The notes beneath the pieces are model-generated. The model did not search any database. It had not been told where the DNA came from and was given only the letters and a program-made list of their open reading frames with translations. The position numbers were made by a program, and so were the translations under genes. From Kitasatospora sp. MMS16-BH015 (GTDB taxonomy: Bacteria > Actinomycetota > Actinomycetes > Streptomycetales > Streptomycetaceae): 64,000 bases of DNA. This document shows, one piece after another, positions 11,525 to 63,999 of the stretch (position 1 is the stretch's first letter; each line of letters starts with the position of its first letter). The stretch covers positions 248,001-312,000 of the forward strand of contig NZ_CP025394.1 of assembly GCF_002943525.1 (NCBI RefSeq), read 5' to 3'.

Positions 11525-11564
11525 CGCCGCATCCCTTCGACTCCGACAGCGGCCGTCTGCCATT

Positions 11565-12703: not shown

Positions 12704-12707
12704 GCGG

Positions 12708-13538: not shown

Positions 13539-13623
13539 CCTGAAAGCCCAGCAGGACCAAGCCGCGCGACCGGCCTGAACCGCCCAAGCCCACACGATCA
13601 GGTGACCACAAGACGTTCATACC

Positions 13624-13639
13624 GGCTCAGAACGTCCTC
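13624..13639. repeat. Right terminal inverted repeat
   Basis: GGCTCAGAACGTCCTC, the exact inverted partner of 10248-10263. The next three bases are TGA, matching the left target duplication. Confidence 0.88.
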
Positions 13640-13678
13640 TGAGACCCGCCGACCCCACGCGGGGCCCAGCCAGGCGAC

Positions 13679-14221
13679 TCAATCCCCAGCGGCGAATTCG
13701 ACGATCCGCGCCAACGACGGCTGCCAGCCCTGAGCGGTGTCCACGACCAGGCACGGGACGTCGAGCGCAATCGGAACCCACAGCTCGATCGGCCTCCTCC
13801 CCTCCGCGATGCGCTCCAAGAGCTCGGCGTCAGCGTGCACCACCCGCGAGGGCTCTTCGACGGCCCGGCGAGCGATGCGGACGCGGGCGAGTTCGGGATC
13901 GACCGTGCAGCGCACCACACGGATGTCGGCCAGCTCCGCGAGCGGCTCCAGGCCCGGACGCCACAGCCGGTCCTGGAAGGCCGCCTCCGCCACCAGGCTC
14001 GCTCCCGACCTCAGGAGCTCCCCGATGGTGCGGAAGAACTCCTCCAGGGTCTTCAGGTCCAAGGCACGATCGGCAGGATCCGCACCGCCGGCCATCCGCT
14101 CCTTGATCTCGTCCCGGCAGACGACCGGCCACCCGAGTGCCTCGGCCAAGGCATGCGCCAGCGTCGTCTTACCCGCCCCGGGCGGGCCACTGACAGCCAC
14201 CATCATCGGGCGTCGCGTCAT
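13679..14221 (-). CDS. AAA/zeta-toxin-like P-loop kinase
   Basis: A 180-residue P-loop ATPase. The Walker A motif is SGPPGAGKTTLAHALAEALG (residues about 10-29), followed by PVVCRDEIKERM, where small-molecule kinases of the AAA_33 type bind substrate. LARVRIARRAVEE looks like the arginine-rich lid. The substrate is unknown; relatives include chloramphenicol 3-O-phosphotransferase-like enzymes and zeta toxins. No antitoxin gene is adjacent. The ATG at 14221 follows GGGAGG. It lies just outside the right end of the passenger-bearing IS. Confidence 0.82.
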   Translation of the reverse strand: MTRRPMMVAVSGPPGAGKTTLAHALAEALGWPVVCRDEIKERMAGGADPADRALDLKTLEEFFRTIGELLRSGASLVAEAAFQDRLWRPGLEPLAELADIRVVRCTVDPELARVRIARRAVEEPSRVVHADAELLERIAEGRRPIELWVPIALDVPCLVVDTAQGWQPSLARIVEFAAGD

Positions 14222-14454
14222 GCCACCGCCTCCCGCTCGTACACCACGCCGCGCACGAACGCTCCTTCCCGCCCCGCGCTGCGAACGCGAGCCTACTCGA
14301 CGACCCCCACGAATCATGCGGGAAGATCCGCCCTCCCCGTGCTGCTCCACGGGTCTTGAGCATGGTGCTCCACTCCTTCCGGCGGTGTGGCGGTCTCCCC
14401 TCGACACGCCTGGACGCCGGCACCGACCGACTGTCCCCCTGGGACCGATGCGGC

Positions 14455-14483
14455 TTGACGAGCCTCCTGAGGTGCTGCGATCT
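14455..14483 (+). promoter_or_regulatory. Candidate promoter for 14520 gene
   Basis: TTGACG at 14455-14460, 17 bases, then CGATCT at 14478-14483. The -35 is good and the -10 poor. The ribosome binding site GAGGGGGAG follows before the ATG at 14520. The rest of the 298-base gap (14222-14519) holds a short direct repeat of TGCTCCAC near 14342 and 14370 and nothing else I can name. Confidence 0.3.
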
Positions 14484-14519
14484 TGAGCACTCGTCACACC
14501 GACTGAGGGGGAGTCAGCA

Positions 14520-15860: not shown

Positions 15861-15871
15861 TCACCCCTCCA

Positions 15872-16951
15872 CTAGGCGTACACCCCGCCGAGCTGCCGGA
15901 TCTCCTCGGCGGGGTACCGGGTCTCCCGGCTCTCACGCTGGAACTCCCGGTTGAACCCGGACACCAGGGCGGCGACCGGCGCGTGCCGGGCGAGCAGCGC
16001 CGCGACCCCCGCCGGGACGCCCGTGGGGCGCTCGCCCTCCGCGTAGGCGCGCACCCGCGCGTACCGTCCCTCCCGGTCCTCCGGCCGGTGGCCGTACAGG
16101 TCGGTGAGCAGCCAGTTCACCAGGTAGGTGGCGGTGTAGGCGCGGTCGTAGCTCCGGTGCCGCTCGAAGAACCCGGCCTCCTCCCGGGACAGCTCGAAGC
16201 TGCTGGACAGGGCGAGCCCGTAGTCCGCGAAGTAGAGGCGCCGACCGTCGGTCAGGATGTTCTCGAAGTGGGCGTCGAAGTGCAGGAGCCCGTGGCTGTT
16301 CATGAACGAGACACCGGCCGCCAGCTCCTTCTCCACCATCGCGCAGGCCAGCTCGGTGCTCTGGTCACCGGCCTCCGTCCGGGCGCCCAACCACTGGTGC
16401 AGGCTCTGCGGGATGTACTCCAGGAACAGCGCGATGCTCGCGGAGGAGTCGCGGAGCCCCTCGATCCGACGGCGCACCTGTGCGCCCCCGCCCCAGTAGG
16501 ACACGGCCCGATCCACGTCGGCCAGCTCCTCCGGCAGGGGCGTCGAATCCGGCAGCACCCGCCAGTGGTGCATCAGCGGGAAGCCCTCGTACTCTCCCTT
16601 GAGCACCCAGTCCGTGGTCATGGTGTGCACGGCCAACTCGCGCCAGGCCCCGAAACCCGGCCCGCCGAGGAGACCGACACCGTACTGGCAGAACCCCGGC
16701 AGCTCGAACACGTTCGCCGTGGACCGGAGGTGCTCCGTCTCCCGCTCCAGGTCGGTGAGCGGCACCCGCTTCACGAAGACCTGGGTGCCGGCCACCTCGA
16801 GCAGCACGGTCTTCCCGCCGATGCCGGCGCCGATCGGCACGGCCGCGCCAACGAGGTCGCGCAGCGCACGGTCGCTGCAGCGGGCCAGGGCGGTGGAGAC
16901 GGCGCCGTGGGCAGCCAGCCGCGCACCGCGCGACATGTCGGGGTTCTGCAC
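15872..16951 (-). CDS. Protein-kinase-like phosphotransferase
   Basis: A 359-residue protein with a kinase-like fold. The catalytic loop is LLHFDAHFENILTDG (His-x-Asp...Asn) and the metal-binding loop is YFADYGLALS, with Asp-Tyr-Gly in place of Asp-Phe-Gly. The Lys-bearing strand is GTQVFVKRVPL. This is closer to small-molecule or atypical protein kinases than to Pkn-type receptor kinases; no transmembrane helix follows. The substrate is unknown. I chose the GTG at 16951, preceded by AGGTGAAGG, over a start 75 bases upstream. Confidence 0.78.
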   Translation of the reverse strand: MQNPDMSRGARLAAHGAVSTALARCSDRALRDLVGAAVPIGAGIGGKTVLLEVAGTQVFVKRVPLTDLERETEHLRSTANVFELPGFCQYGVGLLGGPGFGAWRELAVHTMTTDWVLKGEYEGFPLMHHWRVLPDSTPLPEELADVDRAVSYWGGGAQVRRRIEGLRDSSASIALFLEYIPQSLHQWLGARTEAGDQSTELACAMVEKELAAGVSFMNSHGLLHFDAHFENILTDGRRLYFADYGLALSSSFELSREEAGFFERHRSYDRAYTATYLVNWLLTDLYGHRPEDREGRYARVRAYAEGERPTGVPAGVAALLARHAPVAALVSGFNREFQRESRETRYPAEEIRQLGGVYA

Positions 16952-17134
16952 TGTACGACCTTCACCTGCCGACCGGCCGGCCGCCGTTCCGGAGCCGGAC
17001 CCTACGTAGTGATCGACGAGGAGCACCGACCCGTCGTTCCCCCCAGCTACCCGCGAACTGATCCTCGATCAGGCGGGAGGTGGCTGGCCGCCGCGACGGG
17101 CGGGTGCCGCCCGGCCCGGCAGGCGAGTACCGGT

Positions 17135-18277
17135 TCAGTAGTAGACCGCGCCCATCGCCTCCCGGACCTCGCGGAGCGTCGTCTCGGCCACGGCCGTCGC
17201 CCGCTCGTTGCCCTCCCGCAGGATGCGCCGGAGACTGGCCCTGTCCTCGGCGTACTCCGCGCGGCGGGCCCGGATCGGGGCCAGCCGCTCGTTGACGGCC
17301 TCCGTCACCAGGCGCTTGAGCGCCGACGCTCCGCCGTTGCCGATCTCCTCGGCGACCTGGTGCGGATCGGCCTCCAGGCAGAGGGCCGCGAGCAGCACCA
17401 GGCTCGACACCCCGGGGCGGTGCTCGGGGTCGTAGCTGATCCGCCGCTCGGCGTCGGTGGTGGCGCCCTTGATCAGGCGGGCCGTCTCCTCGGCGGTGGC
17501 GGCCAGGGCGATCGAATTGCCCCGGCTCTTGCTCATCTTGCCGCCGTCGGTGCCGAGCAGGAGCGGCGCGGTGGAGAACAGGATGTCGGGCTCGGGGAAG
17601 ACCGGGGTGGCGCCGGGGCCGCTGCTGAACCGGTCGTTGAACCGGCGGGCGATGGTGCGGGTCAGCTCCAGGTGCGGGGCCTGGTCCAGGCCGGCCGGGA
17701 CCAGGTTGGCCTTGCAGAACAGGATGTCGGCCGCCTGGTGCGCCGGGTAGGTGTACATCAGACCGCTCACCGCGGCCTGCTTGGAGTGGGCGATCTCGTC
17801 CTTGACGGTGGGGTTGCGCCCCAGCTCGGCGACCGAGACCAGACTGAGGAAGGGGAGCAGCAGCTGGTTGAGCGCCGGGATCGCGCTGTGGGTGAAGACG
17901 GTGCTGCGGGACGGGTCGATGCCGATCGCGAGGTAGTCGAGCAGCAGTCCCTCGACGTGCTCGGCCAGCCGGTCGGCCACGTCCCGGTCGGTGAGCACCT
18001 GGTAGTCGGCGATCACCACGAAGGACTCGACGCCGAGGTCTTGGAGGCGGACCCGGTTCTGCAGGGTGCCGAAGTAGTGGCCCAGGTGGAGCCGACCCGT
18101 GGGGCGGTCTCCCGTGAGCACCCGGAACCGCCCGGGTTGACGGTGGATCAGCTGCTCCAGCTCCGCGCTGCGCAGCTGCTCGGCGGCGGAGGGTGCGAGC
18201 GCGGGGGCAGGGGCGAGGGTAGGAGCAGCGGCGGGCGCGGCGGTGGGGGCGGCGGCGGCGAGGACGGTGGTCGTCAT
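17135..18277 (-). CDS. trpS: Tryptophanyl-tRNA synthetase
   Basis: A 380-residue class I synthetase that charges tRNA-Trp. HIGH is seen as TGRLHLGHYFG (residues about 60-70) and KMSKS as GGKMSKSRGN. The N-terminus carries an Ala/Pro-rich extension (AAAAPTAAPAAAPTLAPAPALAP) of about 30 residues. The ATG at 18277 follows AGGAGA. The leader contains a 13-residue peptide with two adjacent Trp codons and competing hairpins, a mark of tryptophan-responsive attenuation. In S. coelicolor the auxiliary, indolmycin-resistant TrpRS is known to be regulated this way; by analogy this may be the inducible, antibiotic-resistant enzyme, but that is inference. Confidence 0.93.
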   Translation of the reverse strand: MTTTVLAAAAPTAAPAAAPTLAPAPALAPSAAEQLRSAELEQLIHRQPGRFRVLTGDRPTGRLHLGHYFGTLQNRVRLQDLGVESFVVIADYQVLTDRDVADRLAEHVEGLLLDYLAIGIDPSRSTVFTHSAIPALNQLLLPFLSLVSVAELGRNPTVKDEIAHSKQAAVSGLMYTYPAHQAADILFCKANLVPAGLDQAPHLELTRTIARRFNDRFSSGPGATPVFPEPDILFSTAPLLLGTDGGKMSKSRGNSIALAATAEETARLIKGATTDAERRISYDPEHRPGVSSLVLLAALCLEADPHQVAEEIGNGGASALKRLVTEAVNERLAPIRARRAEYAEDRASLRRILREGNERATAVAETTLREVREAMGAVYY

Positions 18278-24379: not shown

Positions 24380-25896
24380 CCACCACCGCCCCTGCCACCA
24401 CCGCCCACACCTCCCACCCCCGCCGCTGGATCGGCCTGGCCGTCCTCGTGCTGGCCGTCAGCCTGGTCGCCATCGACGCGACCGTGCTCTCCCTGGCCAT
24501 CCCCTCGATCAGCGAGACCCTGCGCCCCAGCGGCACCCAGCTGCTCTGGATCGGCGACGCCTACTCCTTCGTCCTGGCCGGCCTGCTGGTCTCGATGGGC
24601 GCGCTCAGCGACCGGATCGGCCGCAAGAAGCTGCTGCTGATCGGCTCCACCGCCTTCGGCGCGGCCTCGCTGCTGGCCGCCTACGCGCCCGGCCCGGGCT
24701 GGCTGATCCTGGCCCGCGCCCTGCTCGGCGTGGCCGGCGCGACCATCATGCCCTCCACCCTCTCGCTGATCCGCAGCCTCTTCCCGGACGACCGGGAGCG
24801 GGCCACCGCGATCGGCATCTGGGGCGCGGGCGCCACCGCCGGCGCCGCGCTCGGCCCGCTGGTCGGCGGCGCGCTGCTCGAGCACTTCTGGTGGGGCTCG
24901 GTCTTCCTGCTCAACCTGCCGGTGCTCGCTCTGCTGCTCGTGCTCGGCGCCTGGCTGCTGCCGGAATCCCGCGACCCGAAGCCGGGCCGCTGGGACGTGC
25001 TCAGCGTGGCCCTCTCGATGGCGGGCGTGATCGGCGTGGTCTACGCGATCAAGGAGGCCGCAGCCGGCTCACTCGGCCACTGGTACGTGCCCGCCGCCTT
25101 CCTGCTCGGCGCCGCCGCGCTGGTGCTCTTCGTCCGGCGCCAGCTCCGGCTGGACACCCCGCTGCTGGACGTGCGGCTGTTCCGCGACCCGCGCTTCACC
25201 GCCGCCGCGCTCAGCTCGCTCTGCGCGCTGATCGGTCTCTCCGGCGTGATCTTCTTCATGTCGCAGTACCTCCAGCTGGTCCGCGGCTACCAGCCGCTGA
25301 CCGCCGGTGTCGCCGAGCTGCCCGCCTTCGCCGGCGCGGTGATCGGCGGTCTGCTCACCGCCCGGCTGGCCCGCCGGATCGGCACCCGGGCCACCCTGAC
25401 CATCGGCCTGCTCGTGATGGGGCTGGGCATCGGGGTGCTCGGCTGGGTGCACGAGGACAGCACCTACCTGCTGCTCGGCACGGCCTTCCTGGCCGTCGGC
25501 GCGGCCGAGGGCGTCGTCTACACCCTCGCCGCCGACCTGGTCCTGACCGCCGCCCCCGCCGACAAGGCCGGCGCCGCCTCGGCCGTCTCCGAGACGGCCT
25601 ACGAACTCGGCACCGCCCTCGGTATCGCGCTGGTCGGCTCCGTGGTCACCGCCATCTACGCCGGCACCCTCACCGTCCCGGCCGGCACCGACCCGGCCTC
25701 GGCCGCGGCGGCCAAGGAATCGATCGGCGCCGCCGTCGAAACCGCCCACACCCTCCCGGCCGAGCTCGGCACCTCCCTCCTCACCAACGCCAACCACGCC
25801 TTCGTCCACGGCATGAACATCGCCGCCCTGATCGCCGCCGCCCTCCTCCTCGCCGCCGCAGCCGCCGCCTGGCGCCTCCTGCGCACCAAGCGCTGA
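24376..25896 (+). CDS. MFS drug transporter, DHA2 (14-helix) family
   Basis: A 506-residue 14-helix proton-driven exporter. AVSLVAIDATVLSLAIPSISETL is the first helix and motif D1, LVSMGALSDRIGRKKLLLIG is motif A, and WGAGATAGAALGPLVGGALLEHFWWGSVFLLNLP is the antiporter motif C region. These assign it to the QacA/SmvA group (DHA2), which exports lipophilic cations and dyes. The ATG at 24376 overlaps the TetR stop (ATGA). Probably derepressed when the TetR binds a pump substrate. Confidence 0.9.
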   Translation: MTTTAPATTAHTSHPRRWIGLAVLVLAVSLVAIDATVLSLAIPSISETLRPSGTQLLWIGDAYSFVLAGLLVSMGALSDRIGRKKLLLIGSTAFGAASLLAAYAPGPGWLILARALLGVAGATIMPSTLSLIRSLFPDDRERATAIGIWGAGATAGAALGPLVGGALLEHFWWGSVFLLNLPVLALLLVLGAWLLPESRDPKPGRWDVLSVALSMAGVIGVVYAIKEAAAGSLGHWYVPAAFLLGAAALVLFVRRQLRLDTPLLDVRLFRDPRFTAAALSSLCALIGLSGVIFFMSQYLQLVRGYQPLTAGVAELPAFAGAVIGGLLTARLARRIGTRATLTIGLLVMGLGIGVLGWVHEDSTYLLLGTAFLAVGAAEGVVYTLAADLVLTAAPADKAGAASAVSETAYELGTALGIALVGSVVTAIYAGTLTVPAGTDPASAAAAKESIGAAVETAHTLPAELGTSLLTNANHAFVHGMNIAALIAAALLLAAAAAAWRLLRTKR

Positions 25897-53771: not shown

Positions 53772-54016
53772 CCTGTACTCCTGATTCCCCGTGGGTCGTA
53801 CGCAGCACGGACGTGGCGCGGCAGCACCCCCGTGCCCGCCGCACCACCGTGGGATCCCCCGCCACCTGCGGCGGCGGGCTCCGGCGAACAGTCTGCTCGG
53901 GGCGCTGGCGCGGCGCGAGGTTTCACGGCAGGATTCGAACACCTTCGAAGCCTCGGCCCCGCGCCCCGGCTCCGGGGCGCAGCGCACTGGCCGAGCTGAC
54001 GAGGGGAACAGCCGCC

Positions 54017-55006
54017 GTGATCCGACTCCTGGTCGACTCCACCGGGCTCGCCCGCACCCGTTTCGTGGTCTCGCCGCTGCACGAGGCGATCGGCACCCTG
54101 ATGCCCTCGGGGTTGCGGCCGCGCAGCGGGCCGGACGCCTGGATGGGCCGGGCCCGCCGGGTGCTGCGCCGGGAGGGCCTGGAGCTGCTGGCGGCCTTCG
54201 CCCTGGACCAGGCGGGCAGCTACCTGCCGGATTTCCTCACCCCACACCCGAGCGGCCCGGCCCCGGGCATCGCCGAGCAGGTGGAGGCCGTCCGCACCAC
54301 CCCGCCCGAGCGGGTGCTGGCCGAGCTGGACGCCGTCCGCCACGGCCGCCCGGCGGCCAACCTGGCGGGGCGCGAGCTGCCCGAGGTGGTCGAGCGCACC
54401 CTGGCGCAGGGCCCGGCCGAGCTGGCCCGGCGGGCGGCCGAGGAGTTGGAGCGGTACTGGGAGCTGGCGATGGCGCCCTACTGGCCCGAGGCCCGTTCGG
54501 TGCTGGACGCCGAGGTGGACCGGCGCGGCCGGGTGCTGGCCCGGCACGGTGCCGCGGCGATGCTCAACTCGCTGACCCCGCAGCTGCGGTGGGCGGACGG
54601 ACGGATCGAGCTGGAGAGCCGGTACGAGGTCTGCGTGCCCGCCCCCGAGGTGCTGCTGCTGCCCTCGCTGGTCAACCAGGAGACGCTGATCATCCTGGAC
54701 CCGGTGCCCGGCCTCCAGCGCACCCCGGCCCTGCACTACCCGATCGAACGGCCCTCCGCCGTCTCGGAGTTGCCCGACCCCTCGGTGGCCCAGCTGCTCG
54801 GCCCGACCCGGGCCGCGCTGCTCGCCTCGCTCGGCCGGCCCGCCACCACCAGCGCGCTGGCGGCCCGGCACTTCCTCAGCGAGAGCACCGCCTCCTACCA
54901 CCTGGGCGTGCTGCACCGCTCCGGTCTGGTCAGCCGCAACCGGAGCGGCCGGGAGGTGCTCTACCAGCGCACCGAACGCGCCGAGCACCTCACCCGACAG
55001 AGCTGA
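54017..55006 (+). CDS. ArsR-like winged-helix regulator (DUF5937 type)
   Basis: A 329-residue regulator. The first two thirds are a DUF5937-like helical domain (TGLARTRFVVSPLHEAIGTLMPSG...). The C-terminus is a winged helix: RAALLASLGRPATTSALAARHFLSESTASYHLGVLHRSGLVSRNRSGREVLYQRTERAEHL. Such regulators often control efflux or biosynthesis. It is convergent with the Gfo/Idh gene at the end of the candidate cluster, so it may belong to that locus. The GTG at 54017 follows GAGGGGAA; the upstream extension of the open frame is Arg-rich and unsupported. Confidence 0.85.
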   Translation: MIRLLVDSTGLARTRFVVSPLHEAIGTLMPSGLRPRSGPDAWMGRARRVLRREGLELLAAFALDQAGSYLPDFLTPHPSGPAPGIAEQVEAVRTTPPERVLAELDAVRHGRPAANLAGRELPEVVERTLAQGPAELARRAAEELERYWELAMAPYWPEARSVLDAEVDRRGRVLARHGAAAMLNSLTPQLRWADGRIELESRYEVCVPAPEVLLLPSLVNQETLIILDPVPGLQRTPALHYPIERPSAVSELPDPSVAQLLGPTRAALLASLGRPATTSALAARHFLSESTASYHLGVLHRSGLVSRNRSGREVLYQRTERAEHLTRQS

Positions 55007-55034: not shown

Positions 55035-55964
55035 TCACTTCGCCTGCTGCTCCAGGCACTCGACCACGTACTCGCACAGCTCGTGGGTGCGCAGCGCGTC
55101 CCGGGCCGGGAGCACCCGGCCCGCCCGCACCGCGTCCAGGAAGTGCAGCACCACCTGCTCGATGCCGCGCTGGCGGGCCACCGAGACCCAGTCGCCGCGC
55201 CGCCGCACGGTGGGCTGGCCACGGTGGTCGATCACCTCGGACAGGTTGACCACCACCCGCTTGGAGTCGCCGCCGGAGACCTCCAGCACCTCCTCGGTCG
55301 ACCCGCTCATCCGGTTCATCACCCCGATCGCGGTGAAGCCCTCCCCGGCCAGGGTCAGCACCACGTGCTCGACCAGGCCGTCCCGGCTCCGGGAGCGCAC
55401 GTCGGTGTCGGTCACCTCTCCCGGCACCAGGTGCAGCAGGCTGTCGATCACGTGGATGAAGTCGTCGTAGACCAGGGTGCGGGCCGCCTCCGGCAGGCCC
55501 TCACGGTGCTTCTGCATCAGGATCAGGTCGCGCGGGCGCTCCTTGGCCAGCACGTACCCGGGCGCGTAACGGCGGTTGAAGCCGACCAGCAGGCTGCGCT
55601 GCGCCCGCTCGGCCAGCTCCACCAGCCGCCGGGAGCCGTCCAGCGTGTAGTCCAGCGGCTTGTCCACGTACACGTCCACCCCGGCGGCCAGCAGCCGCTC
55701 GACGATCGGCACGTGCTGGTCGGTCGAGGCGTGCACGAAGGCCGCCTTGATCCCGCTGTCGATCAGCTCGCCCAGATCGGTGTACCGCTCCGTCACCCGG
55801 TAGGCGTCGCCGATCCGGTCCAGCTTGGCCCGGTCCCGGGTCATCAGCCGCAGCTCCACCCTCGGCAGCGCGCCCAGCACCGGCAGGTACGCCTTCTGCG
55901 CGATGTCCCCGAGCCCGATCACCCCGACCGGCAGCAGGGCGTCGGAGGTGGTGGTCGAAGTCAT
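55035..55964 (-). CDS. Gfo/Idh/MocA family oxidoreductase
   Basis: A 309-residue NAD(P)-dependent oxidoreductase. Rossmann motif VGVIGLGDIAQKAYLPVLGALPRVELRLMTRDRAK, then FVHASTDQHVPIVERLLAAGVDVYVDKPLDYTLDGSRRLVELAERAQRSLLVGFNRRYAPGYV, where the conserved Lys-Pro and the NRR block are seen. Usual substrates are sugars, inositols and aminosugars, but the family is broad. It follows ArgRS by 57 bases on the same strand and is probably the last gene of the candidate cluster. ATG start at 55964. Confidence 0.9.
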   Translation of the reverse strand: MTSTTTSDALLPVGVIGLGDIAQKAYLPVLGALPRVELRLMTRDRAKLDRIGDAYRVTERYTDLGELIDSGIKAAFVHASTDQHVPIVERLLAAGVDVYVDKPLDYTLDGSRRLVELAERAQRSLLVGFNRRYAPGYVLAKERPRDLILMQKHREGLPEAARTLVYDDFIHVIDSLLHLVPGEVTDTDVRSRSRDGLVEHVVLTLAGEGFTAIGVMNRMSGSTEEVLEVSGGDSKRVVVNLSEVIDHRGQPTVRRRGDWVSVARQRGIEQVVLHFLDAVRAGRVLPARDALRTHELCEYVVECLEQQAK

Positions 55965-56021
55965 CGCGGCACTCCAGGGCTCGGGGGTACGTGGCTCTCA
56001 CCCTATCCGGAAGGAAACCTG

Positions 56022-57761
56022 CTAGATCTTCTCCGGCGTCTCGATCCCGAGCAGCGAGAGCCCGAGGGTGAGCACCCGCGAGGCGAGCGCCGCGAGCAGC
56101 AGCCGCGATGCGCGCAGCTCCGGGGCGCCGGCCGCCAGGATCGGGCAGGCGGCGTAGAAGGCGGAGAAGCTGCGGGCCGTCGCGTAGAGGTGGGTGCAGA
56201 GCTTGTGCGGGGCGTGGCCGCGGGTCGCGGCGGAGACGGCGGCGGGGAACTCCAGGACGCGCAGCAACAGGGCCCGCTCGCGCGGGTCGGTGAGCAGCAC
56301 CGGGGTGCCGGCGGCCGGGGCGGCGCCAGCCGCGCGCAGCACGGAGCGGGCCCGGCAGTTGGCGTACTGGAGGTAGACGGCGGTGTTGCCGTCCATCGCG
56401 AGCATCCGGTCCCAGTCGAAGAGGTAGTCGCGGCGGCGGTCGTGGGCCAGGTCGGCATACTTGACCGCGCCGATGCCCACCGCCCGGGCCACCGCCGCCT
56501 GCTGCCCCGGCGGGAGCGCGCGGGGCTCGGCGATCTCGGCGGCCCGGTCCACCGCCTCCACCAGGAGGTCGACCAGCTTGACCGAGCCGCCCGCCCGGGT
56601 GCGCACGGCCCGGCCGTCGCTGCCCAGGACGGAGCCGAAGCCGATGTGCTCGGCGTGGTGCTCCGCCATCAGCCAGCCGGCCTCGCGCAGCACGGCGAAG
56701 ACCAGCGCGAAGTGCTGGGCCTGAGGGCTGCCGACCACGTAGAGGAGGTCGGTGGCGCCGCGCTCCTCCAGCCAGTAGCGGGCGGCGGCCAGGTCGGTGG
56801 CGGCGTAGCCGTAGCCGCCGCCGCGCTTGCGGACGATCACCGCGAGCGGGTCGCCGTCGCGGTTGGTGAAGCCCTCGGGGAAGGTGCAGACGGCGCCGCC
56901 GCTGACCCGGGTGAGCCGCCGGGCGCCGAGCTCCTTGACCAGGTCGGCGAGGAAGGGGTTGTAGAAGCTCTCCCCATACACGTCGGCCGGGGTGAGCTCG
57001 ATGCCGAGCAGCCGGTAGACCTGCTCGAAGTGGCCGGCCGACTCCTCGACCAGCCGGCGCCACCAGGTGAGGGTCTGGTCGTGGCCGCCCTGCAGCAGCA
57101 CCACCCGGCGCCGGGCCCGGCTGGCGAACTCCGGCTCGGCGTCGAACTTCTTCCGGGCCTCCTGGTAGAAGCCGTTGAGGTCGCCGATCGAGCCGGCCCC
57201 GGCTGCCTCGGTCAGGCCCTCGTCCACCAGGTGCTCGATCAGCATGCCGAACGGCGTGCCCCAGTCGCCGATGTGGTTGTGCGGGATGACCTGGTGACCG
57301 GCGAACCGCAGCAGCCGCCCGATCGCGTCGCCCAGCACGGTGGAGCGCAGGTGGCCGACGTGCATCTCCTTGGCCACGTTGGGGCTGGAGTAGTCGAGCG
57401 CGATCCGGCGCGGGGCCTCGGTGAGCGGCACGCCGAGCCGCTCCTCGCCCGGCAGGGCGCTCGCCCGGGCGGCCAGCCAGTCGGCCCGGAGCACCAGGTT
57501 GAGGAAGCCCTTCCCGCTGACCTCCGGCGGCTCGACCAGGTCGGCCGCGTCCAGCGCGGCCGCGATCTCCTCGGCCACCTCCCGGGCCGCCCGGCCGAGC
57601 CGGGCGGCCAGCGCCATCGCCACCCCGGTCTGGTAGTCCACCCCCGCGCGCCGGGAGGGCCGGATCACCGCCTGCTCCGGGTCGAGCTCCAGGCCCAGGG
57701 CCTCCCCCACCGCCCGGGCCACCCGTCGGCCCAACTCCACGCTCACGTCCGTGTGCACCAC
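56022..57761 (-). CDS. argS: Arginyl-tRNA synthetase in biosynthetic operon
   Basis: A 579-residue class I synthetase with all expected parts: N-terminal tRNA-D-loop domain (GRRVARAVGEALGLELDPEQAVIRPSRRAGVDYQTGVAMALAARLG), HIGH as NVAKEMHVGHLRSTVLGDAIGRLL, and the KMSKS-loop equivalent SVLGSDGRAVRTRAGGSVKLVDLL. The anticodon-binding C-terminus has PHKLCTHLYATARSFSAFY. It looks functional. It begins 3 bases after the hotdog gene's stop within a biosynthetic operon, so charged Arg-tRNA may be a substrate of the pathway, or this may be a self-resistant copy. GTG start at 57761; a second GTG follows immediately. Confidence 0.92.
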   Translation of the reverse strand: MVHTDVSVELGRRVARAVGEALGLELDPEQAVIRPSRRAGVDYQTGVAMALAARLGRAAREVAEEIAAALDAADLVEPPEVSGKGFLNLVLRADWLAARASALPGEERLGVPLTEAPRRIALDYSSPNVAKEMHVGHLRSTVLGDAIGRLLRFAGHQVIPHNHIGDWGTPFGMLIEHLVDEGLTEAAGAGSIGDLNGFYQEARKKFDAEPEFASRARRRVVLLQGGHDQTLTWWRRLVEESAGHFEQVYRLLGIELTPADVYGESFYNPFLADLVKELGARRLTRVSGGAVCTFPEGFTNRDGDPLAVIVRKRGGGYGYAATDLAAARYWLEERGATDLLYVVGSPQAQHFALVFAVLREAGWLMAEHHAEHIGFGSVLGSDGRAVRTRAGGSVKLVDLLVEAVDRAAEIAEPRALPPGQQAAVARAVGIGAVKYADLAHDRRRDYLFDWDRMLAMDGNTAVYLQYANCRARSVLRAAGAAPAAGTPVLLTDPRERALLLRVLEFPAAVSAATRGHAPHKLCTHLYATARSFSAFYAACPILAAGAPELRASRLLLAALASRVLTLGLSLLGIETPEKI

Positions 57762-57764
57762 GCC

Positions 57765-58235
57765 TCAGCCCTCCCGCTCCGCCGGCCCGGCCGTCCGGAC
57801 CACCAGCGTCGACCACTCCGTCAGCACCTGCTCACCGTCGGCCCCGCAGACCTCGGTGCGCAGGGTGAGTGCGAGGTTGCCCGCCAGGCTCTTGGCCTCC
57901 TCGATCACCACCACGCAGCTCAGCCGGTCGCCGGCCCGGATCGGCCGCTGGTAGACGAAGCGCTGCGCGCCGTGCACCAGGTGGTCGAAGTCGATGCCCA
58001 ACTCGGGGTCGCCGGTGACCTGTTCGGCGGCCTCCTGGGTGAAGACCACGGGGTAGGTGGGCGGGGCCAGCACGTCCGGGTGGCCCATCGCCCGGGCGGT
58101 GGCCACGTCCCGGTAGATCAGCGAGTCGTCGCCGATCGCCCGGGCGAAGCTGCGGATGTGCTCCCGCCCGACCTCGTACGGCGGGGTCGGCGGGTAGCTG
58201 CGGCCCACCGCCTTCAGGATGGCCGGCTCGCTCAA
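57765..58235 (-). CDS. MaoC/FAS1-like hotdog dehydratase
   Basis: A 156-residue hotdog-fold protein. The segment SYPPTPPYEVGREHIRSFARAIGDDSLIYRDVATARAMGHPDVLAPPTYPVVF is the MaoC N-terminal (HadA-like) profile. These act on 3-hydroxyacyl-ACP or -CoA, often with a second subunit carrying the catalytic Asp-His; I see no second subunit nearby. The TTG start at 58235 overlaps the stop of the heme-oxygenase-like gene (TTGA), so translation is coupled. Confidence 0.78.
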   Translation of the reverse strand: MSEPAILKAVGRSYPPTPPYEVGREHIRSFARAIGDDSLIYRDVATARAMGHPDVLAPPTYPVVFTQEAAEQVTGDPELGIDFDHLVHGAQRFVYQRPIRAGDRLSCVVVIEEAKSLAGNLALTLRTEVCGADGEQVLTEWSTLVVRTAGPAEREG

Positions 58236-58954
58236 CGCTCCGTCACCGCCCGGGGCGCGATGTGCACCGGGCACTTCCAGCCCTCCTCGGGGAGCCGGCC
58301 GGAGTACATCACCGTCTCGGGGTGGTCGCCGTCGAACAGCGCCAGCGCCGGGTTCTCGCTGCCCTGGAGCCTGCGGTCGCGGGCCCGGATGGTGGTGGTC
58401 ATCCGGGTGATCGCGCCGGTCTCGCGCAGGATGTCGAACTGCTCGTGCGCGTTGAACACCAGGGTCGGGCGCTCCGGCCGCCGGGCCAGCCGGGAGGAGC
58501 CGGGGTGCATGCCGACGATGAAGAACGGCCGCCCGGCGAAGCTGAAGGAGAAGCCCTTGGTGTTGGGGTCGGTGCCCACCAGCGGGCTCCAGTCGTGGTG
58601 TTCGCGGTCCAGGTCGTGGAGCGACTGGAGCTGCTGCCACATCAGGTGCTCGAACTCCGCCTCGCTCAGCCCGGCCGGCCCGGCGAAGCTGGCCACGAAG
58701 GAGGCGAAGGCCTCCGCCCGGATCGGGTAGTCCTGGATGTACTGCCACAGCTCGGCGGCCAGCGCCCGCGCGCTCTCCGGCGAGCCCAACTCGCCGTAGC
58801 TGCGGAACCGGTAGTCGCCCCGGCGCAGCAGGCCCTTGCCCACCAGACAGGGGTACGGCTCGCTCATCACCATCGCCCGGAACGACTGGTGGGCCTCCTC
58901 CCCCGCCGGGCCGGGCTCGGCGGGCGGGAACGGGTTGTGCGCTGCTGCGTTCAC
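58232..58954 (-). CDS. YqcI/YcgG (GntA-type) heme N-oxygenase
   Basis: A 240-residue member of the YqcI/YcgG family, which includes GntA, a heme-dependent N-hydroxylase of guanitoxin biosynthesis. Seen: SEPYPCLVGKGLLRRGDYRFRSYGELGSPESARALAAELWQYI, FSFSFAGRPFFIVGMHPGSSRLARRPERPTLVFNAHEQFD and PETVMYSGRLPEEGWKCPVH. The conserved His residues (HPGSSR and NAHEQFD) may include the heme ligand. N-hydroxylation of a guanidine or amine fits the ArgRS downstream, but that link is inference. The GTG at 58954 has AGGGGAT upstream. Follows the ACP gene by 93 bases. Confidence 0.82.
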   Translation of the reverse strand: MNAAAHNPFPPAEPGPAGEEAHQSFRAMVMSEPYPCLVGKGLLRRGDYRFRSYGELGSPESARALAAELWQYIQDYPIRAEAFASFVASFAGPAGLSEAEFEHLMWQQLQSLHDLDREHHDWSPLVGTDPNTKGFSFSFAGRPFFIVGMHPGSSRLARRPERPTLVFNAHEQFDILRETGAITRMTTTIRARDRRLQGSENPALALFDGDHPETVMYSGRLPEEGWKCPVHIAPRAVTER

Positions 58955-59047
58955 TGCGATCCCCTGCGGCTGTGGCGGGTTGAGGGCTGGTACGGGGGTC
59001 GGGGGCATCCGGGGTGGTGCCCCCGACCGGTCTCGAGCCTCGGTGTG

Positions 59048-59296
59048 TCAGACGCCGGCGAGCACACCCTGGATGCTGCGCACCAGGTCGCCCACGGTGC
59101 TGTTCTCCTTCAGGTCGTCCTCGGAGATGCTGACGCCGAACCGCTCCTCGGCGGCGACCACGATCTCGACCAGCAGCAGCGAGTCGACGTCCAGGTCGTT
59201 GACGAAGGACTTGTCGAGCTCCACCTCGGCCGGGTCGGTGCCGGCCACCTCCTGGAGGATCGCGGTCAGGCCCTCGTGGATCATTTCCTCGGTCAT
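59048..59296 (-). CDS. Acyl carrier protein
   Basis: An 82-residue acidic helical protein. The phosphopantetheine attachment Ser is in NDLDVDSLLLVEIVVAAEERFGV (Ser39). The length and motif are those of a free type II ACP. It lies 58 bases downstream of the ketosynthase on the same strand, so it probably serves that enzyme. ATG start at 59296. Confidence 0.92.
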   Translation of the reverse strand: MTEEMIHEGLTAILQEVAGTDPAEVELDKSFVNDLDVDSLLLVEIVVAAEERFGVSISEDDLKENSTVGDLVRSIQGVLAGV

Positions 59297-59354
59297 GGCT
59301 GTTCCTCTCGATGCGGAGAATGAAGGGGTTGAACTAGCCTGTGAAAGAACGGAC

Positions 59355-60611
59355 TTACGGCTTCCAGGCGCGGAGGACGGCTACCGCGTTGTGCCCGGCG
59401 AAGCCGAAGGAGTTGCTGACCGCGATGTCGACCTCGTGCTGCTGCGCGGTGTGCGGCACGTAGTTGACCTCGGTGTCCTCCGGGTCGAAGCAGTTGACGG
59501 TCGGCGGCACCACGTTGTCGCGGATGGCCTGCACCAGCGCGATCGCCTCCACCGCGCCGGCCGCGCCGATCATGTGGCCGGTCATCGACTTGGTGGAGCT
59601 GATCGGCATCCGCAGGGCGTGCTCGCCGAAGACCTGACGGATCGCCAGGGTCTCGATCTTGTCGTTCAGCTTGGTGCTGGTGCCGTGCGCGTTGACGTAG
59701 TCCACCTCCGTGGGGTCGATCCGGGCGTCGGCCAGCGCGGCACACAGCGCCTGCTGGGCGCCCGCGCCCTCGGGGTGCGGGGCGGTCGGGTGGTAAGCGT
59801 CGGTGGAGGCGCCGTAGCCGACCAGCTCGGCCAGGATCGGCGCGCCGCGCCGCATCGCCCGCTCGGCCTCCTCCAGCACCAGCACTCCGGCGCCGGAGGC
59901 CATGATGAAGCCGTCCCGCTCCTTGTCGAACGGGCGGCAGGCCTGCTCGGGGTCCTCGTTGCGGCGCGAGAGCGCCCGGGCCGAGCAGGCCGAGGCGATG
60001 TCCGAGCGGGTCACCGACTCGTCGGCGCCGCCGGCCAGCACCACGTCGCAGGCGCCGTACTGGATCCACCGCATCGCCTCGCCGATCGCCGAGGTGCCGC
60101 TGGCGCAGGCGGTGCTGATCGCCCCGGAGGGGCCCTTGGCGCCGAACCGGATGGCGATCTCGCCGGCCGCGTTGTCGATCGCCGAGGCGGCCGAGGTGAA
60201 CGGGCCGATGCTGCGGGCGCCCTTCTCCTTGAGCCCGAGGGTGACCTGCGACTGGATGGTGCTGGGCCCGTAGCCGGAGCCGATCTGCACACCGACCCGG
60301 GGGGCCAGCTCCTCGTCGATCTCCAGCTTCGCCCCCTCCACCGCCTCCACGGCCGCCGCCAGCGCGTACTGGGCGAACGGGTCGATCCGGCGCCAGACCT
60401 TGCGCGGCATGTACTGCTCGGGGTCGAAGTCCCGTACCTGGGCGGCGATCCGGGTCGGCAGGTCGGCGACGTCGAAGGACTCGATCCGGCGGATGCCGCT
60501 GCGGCCCGCCAGCAGCGATTCCCAGAACGCCGCGGTGCTCAAGCCGATCGGCGAGATGACGCCGGTGCCGGTGACGACCACCCGGCGCGGCGATCCGTAC
60601 GGACTGCTCAT
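59355..60611 (-). CDS. Beta-ketoacyl-ACP synthase II type
   Basis: A 418-residue FabF-like ketosynthase. The active Cys169 is in ISTACASGTSAIGEAM, the two His are in VDYVNAHGTSTKLND and KSMTGHMIGAAGAVEAIALVQA, and the Lys is in the same block. Length and motifs match FabF and type II PKS KS-alpha, but no chain-length factor adjoins it, so a FabF-type or highly reducing type II system is more likely. The ATG overlaps the ThDP gene's stop (ATGA). Confidence 0.9.
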   Translation of the reverse strand: MSSPYGSPRRVVVTGTGVISPIGLSTAAFWESLLAGRSGIRRIESFDVADLPTRIAAQVRDFDPEQYMPRKVWRRIDPFAQYALAAAVEAVEGAKLEIDEELAPRVGVQIGSGYGPSTIQSQVTLGLKEKGARSIGPFTSAASAIDNAAGEIAIRFGAKGPSGAISTACASGTSAIGEAMRWIQYGACDVVLAGGADESVTRSDIASACSARALSRRNEDPEQACRPFDKERDGFIMASGAGVLVLEEAERAMRRGAPILAELVGYGASTDAYHPTAPHPEGAGAQQALCAALADARIDPTEVDYVNAHGTSTKLNDKIETLAIRQVFGEHALRMPISSTKSMTGHMIGAAGAVEAIALVQAIRDNVVPPTVNCFDPEDTEVNYVPHTAQQHEVDIAVSNSFGFAGHNAVAVLRAWKP

Positions 60612-62368
60612 GCGTGCTGCTCCGTTCCAACGGGCGTGCTGACAGGGTTGGTTGCTTCCTGGGCGGCGCCGGGGAAGTCGCCGTCCAGCTCGGTGATCCC
60701 CGGCGGGGCGTCGTCGATGGTCACCGGTACTTCGAGGACGGCGACCCGTCCCTTGGCGCTCTCCCGCAGCGCCTCGCCGAGCAGCTCGCCCAGCGCGGCC
60801 TTCTCCCGCACCACCGCGTGCCAGGCCGCCGGGTGCACGGGCAGGCTGCTCTCCTGCCCCTCCTCCGGGCCCCGCTCGTCCAGGCCCCGCTCGTCCAAGA
60901 ACCGGAACCGGCCGCCCGCCGTGCCGTGCTGGTCGAGCTGGCACTGCAGCCAGCCGTAGCCCCGGTTGCGCAGCACCACGTAGGTGACGCCGACGCCCTC
61001 CCGGGCCAGCGTGGACACGTCGTTGGCCACCATCGCGAAGGCGCCGTCGCCGACGAAGGCGACCACCGGCCGCTCGGGCGCGGCGAGCTTGACCCCGCCG
61101 GCCGCGGCGGCGCCGAAGCCCAGCGTGGTCTGCTCGGAGGGCACGATCGAACCGGCCTCGGCGCCGCAGACCCAGTGCGGGAAGAAGTAGGACCACATGT
61201 CCTGCAGGCCGTTCTCCTGCACCAGGATCCGGTCGGCGGGGGCGAGTCGCTCCAGGACGGCGAGCACCTCGGCCACGTGCAGGGTGGCCGAGCCGGCCAT
61301 CTCGGCCAGCCGGGCCGTCACGGCCGCCCGGGCCTCGGCCCGACAGCGGGCCACGGTGGCCGTCCACTCCGGCTGGCCCGCGCCGCTGCCCAGCGCCTCC
61401 AGCCAGTGGGCCACCACGGCCCCGCCCTCGCCGAGCACGCTCGGGCCCGGGTACTCGGTGGAGAGACCGCCCGCGTCCAGGTTGACCTGGAGCACCGGCA
61501 CGCCCTCGCCGACGAACCCGCTGTAGGTGGCGGTCTCCTCCAGCCGGCTGCCCAGGGTCACCAGCAGGTCGGCGCCCTCCCAGACCGGCTGCAGCTCGGC
61601 CGGGGAGTAGAGCCCGGCCAGCCCGCCGAAGGCCGGGTGGCGCTCGTCCACCACCCCGCGCCCGGAGGCGGTGGCGAACACCGCGGCGCCGATCCGCTCG
61701 GCCAGCGCCTCGATCCGGCCCTCCTCGTTCCGTCCGCGCATCCCGCCGCCGACCAGGACCACCGGCCGCCGCGCGCCGGCGAGCAGCTCCAGCGCCGCCG
61801 GGGCGGCCCCGGCCGCCCCGGCCAGGATCGGCTCCTGCGCCCAGGGGCGGGTGCGGACCACCTCCTGGTCGAGCAGGTCGTCCGGCAGCTCCACGTAGAC
61901 CGGCCCGGGCGCGCCGGAGGCGGCCAGCAGGAAGGCCCGGTCAAGCACCGGCACCAGCCGGCTCGGGTGATCCACCCGGGCCGCCCACTTCACCAGCGGT
62001 CGCACCAGCGGGAGTTGGTCCAGCTCCTGGAAGGCGCCGGAGTCCCGCCGCTTGGCGGCGGTGCCGCCGGCCAGCACCACCAGCGGCACCCCGGAGCTCT
62101 GCGCCTCCAGCAGGCCGGTGACGGCGTTGGCCACCGCCGGGCCCTTGCCGACCACGCAGACGGCCGTCCGGCCGGCTTGCATCGCGTAGCCGGTGGCCAT
62201 GAACAGCGCGCTACGCTGGTCGCGGCAGAGCAGCATCCGCACCGGTGCCTCCTGGAGCGCGTGCAGCGCGCCGAGGTCGTCGCCGGGCAGGCCGAACACG
62301 GTGCTCACCCCTCGGTGCACCAGGGCGTCCACCACGGCGTGCCAGGGAGTGGGGTAGCTGATCTCCAC
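60608..62368 (-). CDS. ThDP-dependent carboligase or decarboxylase, atypical
   Basis: A 586-residue thiamine-diphosphate enzyme of the acetolactate-synthase / pyruvate-oxidase superfamily. The ThDP-Mg motif GDGAFAMVANDVSTLAREGVGVTYVVLRN is intact (26 residues from GDG to Asn). The N-terminal block is RMLLCRDQRSALFMATGYAM. Aligned to RHEQGAAMAAIGYA and QEACVVGIADGYA, the position of the activating Glu (9 before the Gly of GYA) holds Gln, with Asp beside it. Either activation is unusual or an adjacent acid substitutes. The GTG at 62368 starts 2 bases after the upstream stop. Confidence 0.87.
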   Translation of the reverse strand: MEISYPTPWHAVVDALVHRGVSTVFGLPGDDLGALHALQEAPVRMLLCRDQRSALFMATGYAMQAGRTAVCVVGKGPAVANAVTGLLEAQSSGVPLVVLAGGTAAKRRDSGAFQELDQLPLVRPLVKWAARVDHPSRLVPVLDRAFLLAASGAPGPVYVELPDDLLDQEVVRTRPWAQEPILAGAAGAAPAALELLAGARRPVVLVGGGMRGRNEEGRIEALAERIGAAVFATASGRGVVDERHPAFGGLAGLYSPAELQPVWEGADLLVTLGSRLEETATYSGFVGEGVPVLQVNLDAGGLSTEYPGPSVLGEGGAVVAHWLEALGSGAGQPEWTATVARCRAEARAAVTARLAEMAGSATLHVAEVLAVLERLAPADRILVQENGLQDMWSYFFPHWVCGAEAGSIVPSEQTTLGFGAAAAGGVKLAAPERPVVAFVGDGAFAMVANDVSTLAREGVGVTYVVLRNRGYGWLQCQLDQHGTAGGRFRFLDERGLDERGPEEGQESSLPVHPAAWHAVVREKAALGELLGEALRESAKGRVAVLEVPVTIDDAPPGITELDGDFPGAAQEATNPVSTPVGTEQHA

Positions 62369-62370
62369 GG

Positions 62371-63999
62371 TCAGACTCCGATTCCGTACTGGGCGACGGC
62401 CTTGGAGAGCAGCAACGGCTCGGCGTTGCGCTTCCCTTGGTACGCCGCGTAGTTGGCCATCACGCCCCGGCCGCCGAACGCGTGGTTGCCGTTGTCCACG
62501 TCCAGCAGCGTGCGGTTGACGGCGACGGTGTGCCGCTCGCGCAGCTTGGCCACCAGGGCCTCCTCGCTGCCGTAGACCATCGCGCCCATCGACCGCTCGG
62601 CGAAGTACGGCGAGAACAGCAGCTTCTCCAGCTGCTCGGCGTCCTCGTAGACCACCACGTTGAACAGCGGGGAGAAGAACTCGCTGATGTCCAGCGGGTC
62701 GTCGATGTCGCGCAGGAACACGGTCGGGGTGACCAGACCGGTCCGGAAGTCCACCTCGCCGCCGTGCACCACGTACTCCCGGTTGCGCAGCAGGAACTCG
62801 GCGGTGGCGCGCAGCGCGGAGTCGTAGTGCAGGGCGCCGTAGTCGGCGTCCGGGTCGCGGTAGGCGCCGTGGCGCTGCTCGGCGAGGCGCTTGGTGAGGC
62901 CGTGGACGAAGCGGTCCTGGACGGCGGCGTGCACGAAGAACACGTCCGGGCCGAAGCAGTCCTGCCCGGAGTTGTGCAGCCGGATCCGGATCGCGTCCTC
63001 CACGGCCCGCTCGCCGTCGGCCTCGGGGCCGACCACGAAGGGGTTGATGCCCTGGCCGAAGAAGAGCATCAGCTGGTCGCGGCGGAGCTTGCGGCGCAGG
63101 TCCTCGGCGTTGTTGTACGCGCCGGTGAAGACCACCACGTCGGCCTCGGCGGCCGGGCCGCTGACGAACTGGCGCTGGTTGAGCGTGGAGAGCTCGATCG
63201 GCAGGCCGTGCACGGGGGCGAAGAGCTCGTGCAGCCGGTGGGTCTGGGCGGCGACCTGGCTGGAGGCGCGCAGTGAGATCCGCTCGGTGAAGAGCGCGGG
63301 CACCACGGCGTGCAGCACGTAGGTGTAGAGGATGATGTTGGAGGACATGAAGCCGGCCAGCCGGCCGACCCGCTTGGGGCGGTTGCGGATCAGCTCGTCC
63401 ACCACCCCCTCCAGGGTGGCGATGGAGGCCTCGATCTCCTCGTCCACGGCCTTGCGGACGGAGATCTCGGTGAGGATCCCGGCCACCTCCTCGGGCTGCT
63501 CCTTGAGGAAGGCGATCATGTCGTGCACGGCCCGCACCCGGTCGGGCAGCGGCACCCCGGCCGAGACCAGCGCGGAGACCGGCACCACCGGCCGGGCGGC
63601 CCGGTCGCCGCTGGCCTCGCCGGCCAGGCGGCGCAGCTCCACCATGTCGGGCTTGCCGTTGGCATTCAGCGGGAACTGCTCGACCACCAGCACCTTGTTG
63701 GGCTGCTCGTAGGAGGGCAGCAGCGCGTCGATCTCGCGGCGCCACTGCTGGGCCCCGGCGCCGTCCGGGTCGGCCACCACGAAGACCAGCTGGCAGCCGC
63801 GCCGCTCGTCGTCCAGCGCGACGATCTTCACCGGCCGGCCGCAGGCCTCGGCCCGGCGCTCGATCGACTCGGGGTAGAGGGTGTGGCCCAGGCGGTGCAC
63901 CGCGTACTTGCGGCCCACCACGTAGAGGTTGCCCTTGGTGTCCCAGTAGCCGAGGTCCTGGGTGCGGTAGGCGCCGTCCCCGGAGCGGGCGATGCTGCC
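62371..63999 (-). CDS. Adenylation-ALDH fusion, N-terminus beyond window
   Basis: A partial gene; 542 residues are in the window and the start lies past 64000. The first about 150 residues are the end of an ANL adenylation domain (YRTQDLGYWDTKGNLYVVGRKYAVHRLGHTLYPESIE and FPLNANGKPDMVELRRL, the A10 Lys). The rest is an aldehyde-dehydrogenase domain: RLAGFMSSNIILYTYVLHAVVPALF, VVVFTGAYNNAEDL, and the catalytic Cys in NSGQDCFGPDVFF (about residue 348 of the visible part). The usual general-base Glu of LELGG is Phe in LFFGQG, as in acylating or reductive ALDHs. It may activate an acid and reduce it to an aldehyde. No carrier domain lies between the two parts. Confidence 0.85.
   Translation of the reverse strand, partial: GSIARSGDGAYRTQDLGYWDTKGNLYVVGRKYAVHRLGHTLYPESIERRAEACGRPVKIVALDDERRGCQLVFVVADPDGAGAQQWRREIDALLPSYEQPNKVLVVEQFPLNANGKPDMVELRRLAGEASGDRAARPVVPVSALVSAGVPLPDRVRAVHDMIAFLKEQPEEVAGILTEISVRKAVDEEIEASIATLEGVVDELIRNRPKRVGRLAGFMSSNIILYTYVLHAVVPALFTERISLRASSQVAAQTHRLHELFAPVHGLPIELSTLNQRQFVSGPAAEADVVVFTGAYNNAEDLRRKLRRDQLMLFFGQGINPFVVGPEADGERAVEDAIRIRLHNSGQDCFGPDVFFVHAAVQDRFVHGLTKRLAEQRHGAYRDPDADYGALHYDSALRATAEFLLRNREYVVHGGEVDFRTGLVTPTVFLRDIDDPLDISEFFSPLFNVVVYEDAEQLEKLLFSPYFAERSMGAMVYGSEEALVAKLRERHTVAVNRTLLDVDNGNHAFGGRGVMANYAAYQGKRNAEPLLLSKAVAQYGIGV

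Follow-up and report, generated by a model that had tools for sequence, protein, structure and literature searches.

Known Systems and the Kitasatospora Locus

A spare aminoacyl-tRNA synthetase (aaRS) carried within a biosynthetic gene cluster is established as an immunity determinant in the case of ObaO, and a gene of this kind points to the target of the product, as ObaO does to threonyl-tRNA synthetase (ThrRS) (PMC10619133). Six bacterial members of the YqcI/YcgG family of heme N-oxygenases are described as characterized; they hydroxylate arginine-type guanidines, and N-hydroxyarginine is among the products of the family (PMC12866846). According to the same source, AglA acts on the arginyl amide AMPn-Arg, a substrate prepared with arginyl-tRNA synthetase (ArgRS), tRNA, and AglC, and the wild-type enzyme is essentially inactive on free arginine. 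Alpha-oxoamine synthases (AOS) that use amino acids beyond serine, glycine, and alanine also exist, e.g., Alb29, which uses glutamate (PMC11906848). In this work, we analyzed a 64,000-nucleotide window (the whole stretch of DNA considered; C1:248,001-312,000 of one 8.96-Mb contig) of Kitasatospora sp. MMS16-BH015 and extended the reading beyond its edge (C1:312,001-320,682, same contig). We found a minus-strand operon that joins fatty-acyl chemistry to a GntA-type YqcI/YcgG oxygenase and an extra ArgRS. The candidate cluster proposed in an earlier note on this DNA is thus borne out as a conserved cluster whose ten genes are collinear in four genomes, namely, two Kitasatospora including the host and two Streptacidiphilus. 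Each part has a known relative; to our knowledge, the combination in one conserved operon is new. We tentatively propose that the cluster makes an arginine-derived, guanidine-N-hydroxylated amino-ketone lipid and that the terminal ArgRS is a predicted product-insensitive spare copy of the product's target.

Gene Content and Conservation of the Cluster

The eight minus-strand genes listed in the earlier note are all present, their identities hold against Pfam and NCBIfam models, and the small gaps and overlaps between them are confirmed (2, −4, 58, 39, −4, 3, and 57 bases from the first gene to the last). They encode an adenylation-aldehyde dehydrogenase fusion (A-ALDH; 884 aa; 62371..65025, with its start at C1:313,025 outside the window; PF00501 191.3 and PF00171 70.8 bits), a thiamine diphosphate (ThDP)-dependent enzyme of the acetolactate synthase fold (60608..62368; PF02776/PF00205/PF02775), a FabF-type beta-ketoacyl-ACP synthase II (59355..60611; TIGR03150 551.9 bits, cut-off 493.75), an acyl carrier protein (ACP; 59048..59296; PF00550 61.9 bits; NF002147 91.7, cut-off 84), the GntA-type heme N-oxygenase (58232..59008; PF08892 180.9, cut-off 27; NF041366 GntA 252.9, cut-off 145), a HadA-like (3R)-hydroxyacyl-ACP dehydratase of the hotdog type (57765..58235; PF13452 100.3 bits; NF040624 HadA 111.3, under the cut-off of 180), a full-length ArgRS of the Escherichia coli type (579 aa; 56022..57761; TIGR00456 434.5 bits, cut-off 261.65), and a Gfo/Idh/MocA oxidoreductase as the final gene of the run in the window (55035..55964; PF01408 56.6 bits). 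The note had also suspected that core enzymes lie outside the window. Past 64,000, the operon indeed runs on along the same strand with the rest of the A-ALDH gene, an MMPL transporter gene (65096-67261), a gene for a 1,491-aa type I polyketide synthase (PKS) with a C-terminal AOS (PKS-AOS; 67304-71779), and the enoyl-ACP reductase gene fabI (71918-72682; NF005908 437.9 bits, cut-off 299). From PKS-AOS through Gfo/Idh the gaps range from −4 to 70 bases, and FabI is separated from PKS-AOS by 138 bases. Rfam models had no hits in the window.

A scan of the named genomes with A-ALDH gave ten real loci; a weak eleventh (26%, L016) was dropped. Three of them are close to the window cluster: L006 in Kitasatospora sp. 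MAA4, L007 in Streptacidiphilus anmyonensis, and L008 in S. pinicola. In all three, the genes for FabI, PKS-AOS, MMPL, A-ALDH, ThDP enzyme, FabF, ACP, GntA, dehydratase, and ArgRS have the window's order, with 66-94% identity by tblastn. Conservation of order was the point on which the earlier note had staked its claim; it is identical in the three close loci but does not extend to the distant A-ALDH loci (44-51% identity), which have different gene sets and no ArgRS in the stretches read. The identical order in three other loci indicates that the grouping is more than chance, Gfo/Idh excepted. The Gfo/Idh gene, which had been counted as a member, was not recovered by tblastn in L006-L008 or L075-L080, and for lack of a match in the three related loci it probably lies outside the core cluster. 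ArgRS is the final gene common to all four loci, with 74-77% identity to the window copy in the relatives, and no gene common to all three relatives was found beyond it (7-16 kb examined). In these three, an additional gene of 524-556 aa lies between the dehydratase and ArgRS genes, where the window has none. It encodes a major facilitator superfamily (MFS) exporter, as judged from PF07690 in the L006 copy and from homology in the other two.

The Cluster-Borne Arginyl-tRNA Synthetase

The host genome has three ArgRS genes, i.e., the cluster copy and two more. The one at C1:5,767,388, which is 25% identical to the cluster copy, is likely the housekeeping enzyme, judging from its type. The cluster ArgRS contains the N-terminal (PF03485), catalytic (PF00750), and DALR (PF05746) domains and aligns with E. 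coli ArgRS (4oby) at 494.9 bits over residues 12-578. Its motifs are intact (the HIGH-type DYSxPNxAKEMHVGH, GYGYxxTDL, PQAQH, and RTRAGG). Among the four cluster copies, the ratio of nonsynonymous to synonymous substitution rates (0.24-0.45, a rough measure at such base composition) shows purifying selection only.

A phylogeny of 16 rows groups the four ArgRS proteins read within their clusters with support of only 77/100. With 46 rows, the eleven closest proteins form one clade (100/100), and the Amycolatopsis panacis ArgRS is sister to it (98/94), apart from four other Amycolatopsis copies. The eleven comprise the window copy and the three others read in a cluster, three placed by equal contig size, and four on short contigs. 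Thirteen positions are specific to this clade when it is compared with 28 other proteins, and three of these (45, 293, and 314) also hold for A. panacis. Position 314 is the sole uniform one, with Gly throughout the clade as well as in A. panacis and Asp in 28/28 others. It lies five residues before a Tyr that probably corresponds to Tyr313, an arginine ligand in E. coli ArgRS. Among the best 120 of 7,949 homologues, residue 314 is Gly in 14 (the eleven, P0289 at 74%, A. panacis, and P0357) and Asp in 106. In the 17 loci read, Gly was found in the four clusters and in a remnant in genome G120, Asp in eleven, and Asn in one.

Two unusual ArgRS occurrences were noted during this comparison. The ArgRS at L099 (G010:C161, 9230-10957) has QAHH for HVGH, with its remaining aligned motifs ordinary, and the two ArgRS proteins found in Actinocrispum wychmicini (P0295 and P0297) are nearly identical and have an equal longest-contig size of 614,947.

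The GntA-Type Heme N-Oxygenase

In the window N-oxygenase, the counterpart of the AglA heme ligand Cys44 is Cys54, which is invariant in 38 sequences. The phenylalanines that sandwich the substrate in AglA have equivalents by alignment (Phe152 and Phe182), and Arg179 and Gln177 of AglA are replaced by His and Asn. An AlphaFold2 model (pLDDT 86.1) gave its best Foldseek match to 9ubb (E 1.9e-11; TM 0.73); at E<=0.001, five AglA entries and nothing else were retrieved, with 24-26% identity in the structural alignment. The window protein also shows a clean in-frame gap close to the N terminus, where it is missing 24 residues that are for the most part retained in the 12 other aligned homologues. 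Because these residues of its relatives are absent, the window N-oxygenase may be impaired. The host genome has a further weak match to the YqcI/YcgG family elsewhere (28.5 bits).

The PKS-AOS, A-ALDH, and ThDP Enzymes

For the PKS-AOS, Pfam identified ketosynthase (KS), acyltransferase (AT), and Aminotran_1_2 domains, and the bioF model scored 357.9 bits, under its cut-off of 426.45. An ACP was not listed by Pfam and was read from a GFDSL motif alone, giving the arrangement KS-AT-ACP-AOS. The ALDH half of the A-ALDH keeps a catalytic-type Cys, with NSGQDC aligned to NSGQTC of ALDH3. When the ThDP enzyme was compared with acetolactate synthase 13bb, RDQ (in CRDQR) was found where the synthase has RHE, i.e., Asp for Glu. 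The Glu of the acetolactate synthase RHE is the catalytic residue. The motif was located in 26/32 loci scanned, as RDQR in 25 and as RHEQ in one (L059, with a ThDP enzyme of 29% identity). These RDQR enzymes form a ThDP subfamily tied to A-ALDH genes. The suggestion of the earlier note that an aldehyde from the A-ALDH is joined by the ThDP enzyme is plausible. The papers retrieved on acyloin/ThDP/ALDH clusters were not relevant as judged by title and start of abstract.

Wider Distribution and Related Gene Families

We surveyed 394 Streptomycetaceae genomes for A-ALDH (E<=1e-60), GntA (E<=1e-30), and E. coli-type ArgRS (E<=1e-150). A-ALDH matches occur in 50 genomes and are near full length in 12, four of which are the close family (the window and the three named relatives). 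GntA matches occur in 29 genomes, with four cluster copies of at least 73% identity and all others at 44% or less. Matches to ArgRS were found in 12 genomes at 15 places, i.e., the four clusters, one remnant, and ten others. In a co-occurrence check of the kind proposed in the earlier note, the GntA and ArgRS genome lists overlap in exactly four genomes, always inside the cluster, and 0.88 would be expected if the two were independent.

Two further families, comprising L009-L015, L052, L053, and L055 (family II) and L051, L054, and L056 (family III), share A-ALDH, ThDP enzyme, and FabF with the window cluster at 44-61% identity. In family II, these are joined by a condensation domain, an ACP, and an AOS-like enzyme of another kind, with short-chain dehydrogenase/reductase and MFS genes in most. 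Family III loci carry FabI and dehydratase genes plus a GntA-like gene (39-41%); nonribosomal peptide synthetase and ATP-grasp genes occur in L051 and L056, the two loci whose genes were read individually, and L051 has a confirmed AurF-type oxygenase. ArgRS was not found in the family II and III loci as read, nor in the adjoining 20 kb of the three family III genomes. Since A-ALDH/ThDP/FabF loci elsewhere show no ArgRS, the acyl module is, as far as these sequences indicate, general, and the ArgRS is specific to the close family. The A-ALDH/ThDP/FabF module is thus wider than the ArgRS cluster.

Protein searches for PKS-AOS, GntA, and ArgRS, with the best 120 matches listed for each, pointed to putative further carriers. 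Among the matches listed, relatives of all three proteins share equal longest-contig sizes of 22,621 and 182,873, and relatives of GntA and ArgRS share 255,212 and 3,224, the latter a Kitasatospora (NPDC strain). The 182,873-base contig belongs to A. panacis (PKS-AOS 82%, GntA 71%, and ArgRS 65% identity). This species probably carries the cluster too; the equal contig size is strong but indirect evidence, with adjacency unproven over 182,873 bases. In G120 (L096, G120:C35:66001-86000, 8986-11721), a shortened MFS gene (79%) and an ArgRS (74%) in two reading frames are present, and the only other match to the cluster queries in these 20 kb is a 39% ketosynthase. We read this locus as a putative remnant of a cluster end. 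Elsewhere in the same genome, L097 (G120:C1:198001-218000, 9301-17711) has an E. coli-type ArgRS (63%) beside an MFS gene, a gene for an 809-aa protein with no Pfam match, and an L-amino acid ligase-type ATP-grasp gene, and is possibly a second arginine-related cluster.

In a class sample of 296 genomes, one further full-length A-ALDH was found (G508, 49%), with no GntA or ArgRS within the 15.6 kb available around it. No second full-length A-ALDH was found in the 35 genomes of the G508 family, and ArgRS matches in 58 sampled genomes were at most 56% identical to an Amycolatopsis ArgRS. Two candidates were rejected. The ArgRS of G101 (L074) lies ~13 kb from the nearest gene of the A-ALDH locus, with seemingly unrelated genes between, and groups with another orphan copy. 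For plasmid carriage, 13 plasmid records (H1-H13, Streptomyces) match the ALDH part only, at 36-37%. Separately, L066 and L068 have an ALDH of 37-38% paired with a ThDP enzyme and an adenylation gene.

Flanking Genes

On the FabI side, a fatty-acid desaturase gene diverges upstream of the host operon (PF03405 229.8 bits); it is full length in L080 (S. anmyonensis) and cut by the locus end in L008. This flank has a FabG-like reductase gene in all three relatives and a helix-turn-helix regulator gene in two of them (the spot was only partly read in the third). On the ArgRS side, the ArsR-like gene that the earlier note saw converging on the operon end was recovered (53813..55006, plus strand) and encodes a C-terminal ArsR/MarR-like winged helix (PF12840 33.3 bits at 331-373). 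It has no match in the related loci; we regard it as a neighbor, its cluster membership being only putative. Within the window, an MFS gene 30 kb from the operon (24421-25818) shares 49% identity with the MFS exporter found just before ArgRS in the relatives.

Proposed Pathway and Alternative Explanations

In the pathway that we tentatively favor, an acyl chain would be assembled by FabF, ACP, the HadA-type dehydratase, and FabI (together with FabG in the relatives), the desaturase perhaps taking part, and would then be elongated by the KS-AT-ACP module. Release would fall to the AOS, which would condense the chain with an amino acid under decarboxylation; arginine as this substrate is a guess. 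N-hydroxylation of the guanidine would be the task of the GntA-type enzyme. At one end of the chain, an aldehyde would be formed and consumed by the A-ALDH and ThDP enzymes, and MMPL (with MFS where present) would export the product. Through its arginine-like head group, the predicted product would act as a competitor at the active site of ArgRS, and charging of tRNA-Arg would continue through the cluster copy. We infer a spare copy from its terminal location, its place beside an exporter in the relatives, and its separate lineage, in which a catalytic-domain residue is altered, as well as from the presence of a housekeeping copy, the lack of a recognized user of Arg-tRNA, and the ObaO precedent. 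In the open-licence full texts searched, no paper combines ArgRS, a biosynthetic gene cluster, and self-resistance, and wider searches revealed none among the titles and abstract starts listed. In a review of aaRS inhibitors, all three mentions of ArgRS fall in general sections. That the window or related loci make lipoxamycin, neoenactin, or jietacin was a guess and was left unused; of the 20 titles listed out of 28 papers, none mentions a gene cluster.

The earlier note had cast ArgRS as a supplier of arginine or Arg-tRNA. In the version considered here, Arg-tRNA from ArgRS would serve a transferase that attaches arginine to the amine on the PKS-AOS product, and the arginyl amide so formed would be N-hydroxylated by the GntA-type enzyme as in argolaphos. 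The AOS product would bear a free amine that could serve in this way. However, the conserved genes include no aminoacyl-tRNA-using transferase by Pfam (no GNAT, FemX, or LPG-synthase; no search was made with AglC itself as query), and a GNAT gene occurs ~1 and ~5 kb beyond ArgRS in only two of the three relatives. The three family III loci, moreover, have a GntA-like gene and no ArgRS in the stretches read. Self-protection fits better than supply, because the extra full-length ArgRS lies at the cluster end, by an exporter in three loci, and has a clade-specific substitution. We consider the supply route unlikely, and it is still the alternative that survives best.

A different division of labor would have the PKS-AOS make a sphingoid-type amino ketone from serine or glycine, with GntA and ArgRS serving a separate arginine-derived part or with the N-oxygenase taking a non-guanidine nitrogen. 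A PKS/AOS pair makes sphingolipids in Pseudomonas (PMC12134224), and the closest AOS relatives among solved structures are of the serine type, as detailed below. Yet this explanation leaves the conserved ArgRS unexplained by itself, and the YqcI/YcgG family is described as guanidine N-hydroxylases (PMC12866846); it seems to us improbable. Slightly less probable again is an altered ArgRS that charges a modified arginine (e.g., N-hydroxyarginine) or discriminates against it, with no inhibitor resistance. The clade-specific Asp-to-Gly change falls in the catalytic domain, near the GYGYxxTD motif in sequence, and N-hydroxyarginine is made by this oxygenase family (PMC12866846), but the other motif residues match ordinary ArgRS, and a discriminating extra copy would leave mischarging by the housekeeping enzyme unchecked. 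That the ArgRS is an ordinary accessory gene settled beside the cluster by chance, as its scattered occurrence in 12/394 genomes and its close homologues from many actinomycete genera among the matches listed might suggest, is very improbable given its same place in four loci at 74-77% identity, the equal contig size of 3,224 for the GntA and ArgRS of the Kitasatospora (NPDC strain), and an ArgRS clade that follows the cluster into Amycolatopsis.

Several observations weigh against the spare-copy proposal. E. coli-type ArgRS also occurs outside the cluster (10 places in 10 of 394 genomes), and the ArgRS of the G120 remnant is itself broken. Beyond the eleven clade members and A. panacis, Gly314 is found in P0289 and in P0357, the latter a 62% identical protein of a metagenome-assembled genome. 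The structures nearest to the AOS are serine palmitoyltransferases, and PKS-AOS fusions are common (4,398 of 7,993 scored proteins at E<=1e-60), so the AOS alone is no pointer to arginine. The desaturase is matched in L006 by two short pieces only. The window's GntA is without 24 residues and the window is without the MFS gene, and on these two grounds its copy of the pathway may be partly decayed and drifting. Finally, argolaphos is a real precedent for GntA-family chemistry together with ArgRS and tRNA (PMC12866846).

The spare-copy proposal can be taken one step further, to a first natural-product family aimed at ArgRS, in which the PKS-AOS would release an arginine-like amino ketone headed by an N-hydroxyguanidine. 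Protection would come from a dedicated ArgRS lineage with the Asp-to-Gly change at a nearly invariant catalytic-domain position, and a ThDP subfamily having Asp for the catalytic Glu would take part in the synthesis. Taken as a whole, this extended claim is rather doubtful. If ArgRS is truly the target, it would provide a concrete cluster, a testable pair of enzymes in one genome, and eight genomes or contigs (four read and four by equal contig size).

Comparison with Known Systems

We know of no PKS-AOS or acyl genes in the argolaphos pathway. The likeness of the window locus to that system (AglA and AglC) lies in a YqcI/YcgG N-oxygenase together with arginine and ArgRS chemistry, and the predicted fold of the window enzyme is that of AglA; the argolaphos pathway, in contrast, is described as leading to a phosphonopeptide (PMC12866846), and AglA is only 24-26% identical to the window enzyme. 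Guanitoxin biosynthesis is related through the N-oxygenase, which passes the NF041366 GntA model, but the operon places this enzyme in a context of acyl chemistry. A relative of the guanitoxin cluster was rejected, as only gntA is shared; among the eleven operon genes, none was annotated as another guanitoxin gene, with no gene-by-gene search made. The PfSgaAB sphingolipid cluster likewise pairs a type I PKS with an AOS, the latter adding an amino acid to terminate the chain; however, it is described with two separate genes and serine (PMC12134224), whereas the window operon has one fused protein along with ThDP, A-ALDH, N-oxygenase, and ArgRS genes. The closest parallel for the ArgRS itself is obafluorin, in which ObaO, a resistant second ThrRS, is an extra aaRS in the cluster beside a housekeeping copy (PMC10619133); threonine is concerned there and arginine here, the scaffolds are unrelated, and resistance, established for ObaO, is for the Kitasatospora ArgRS a prediction.

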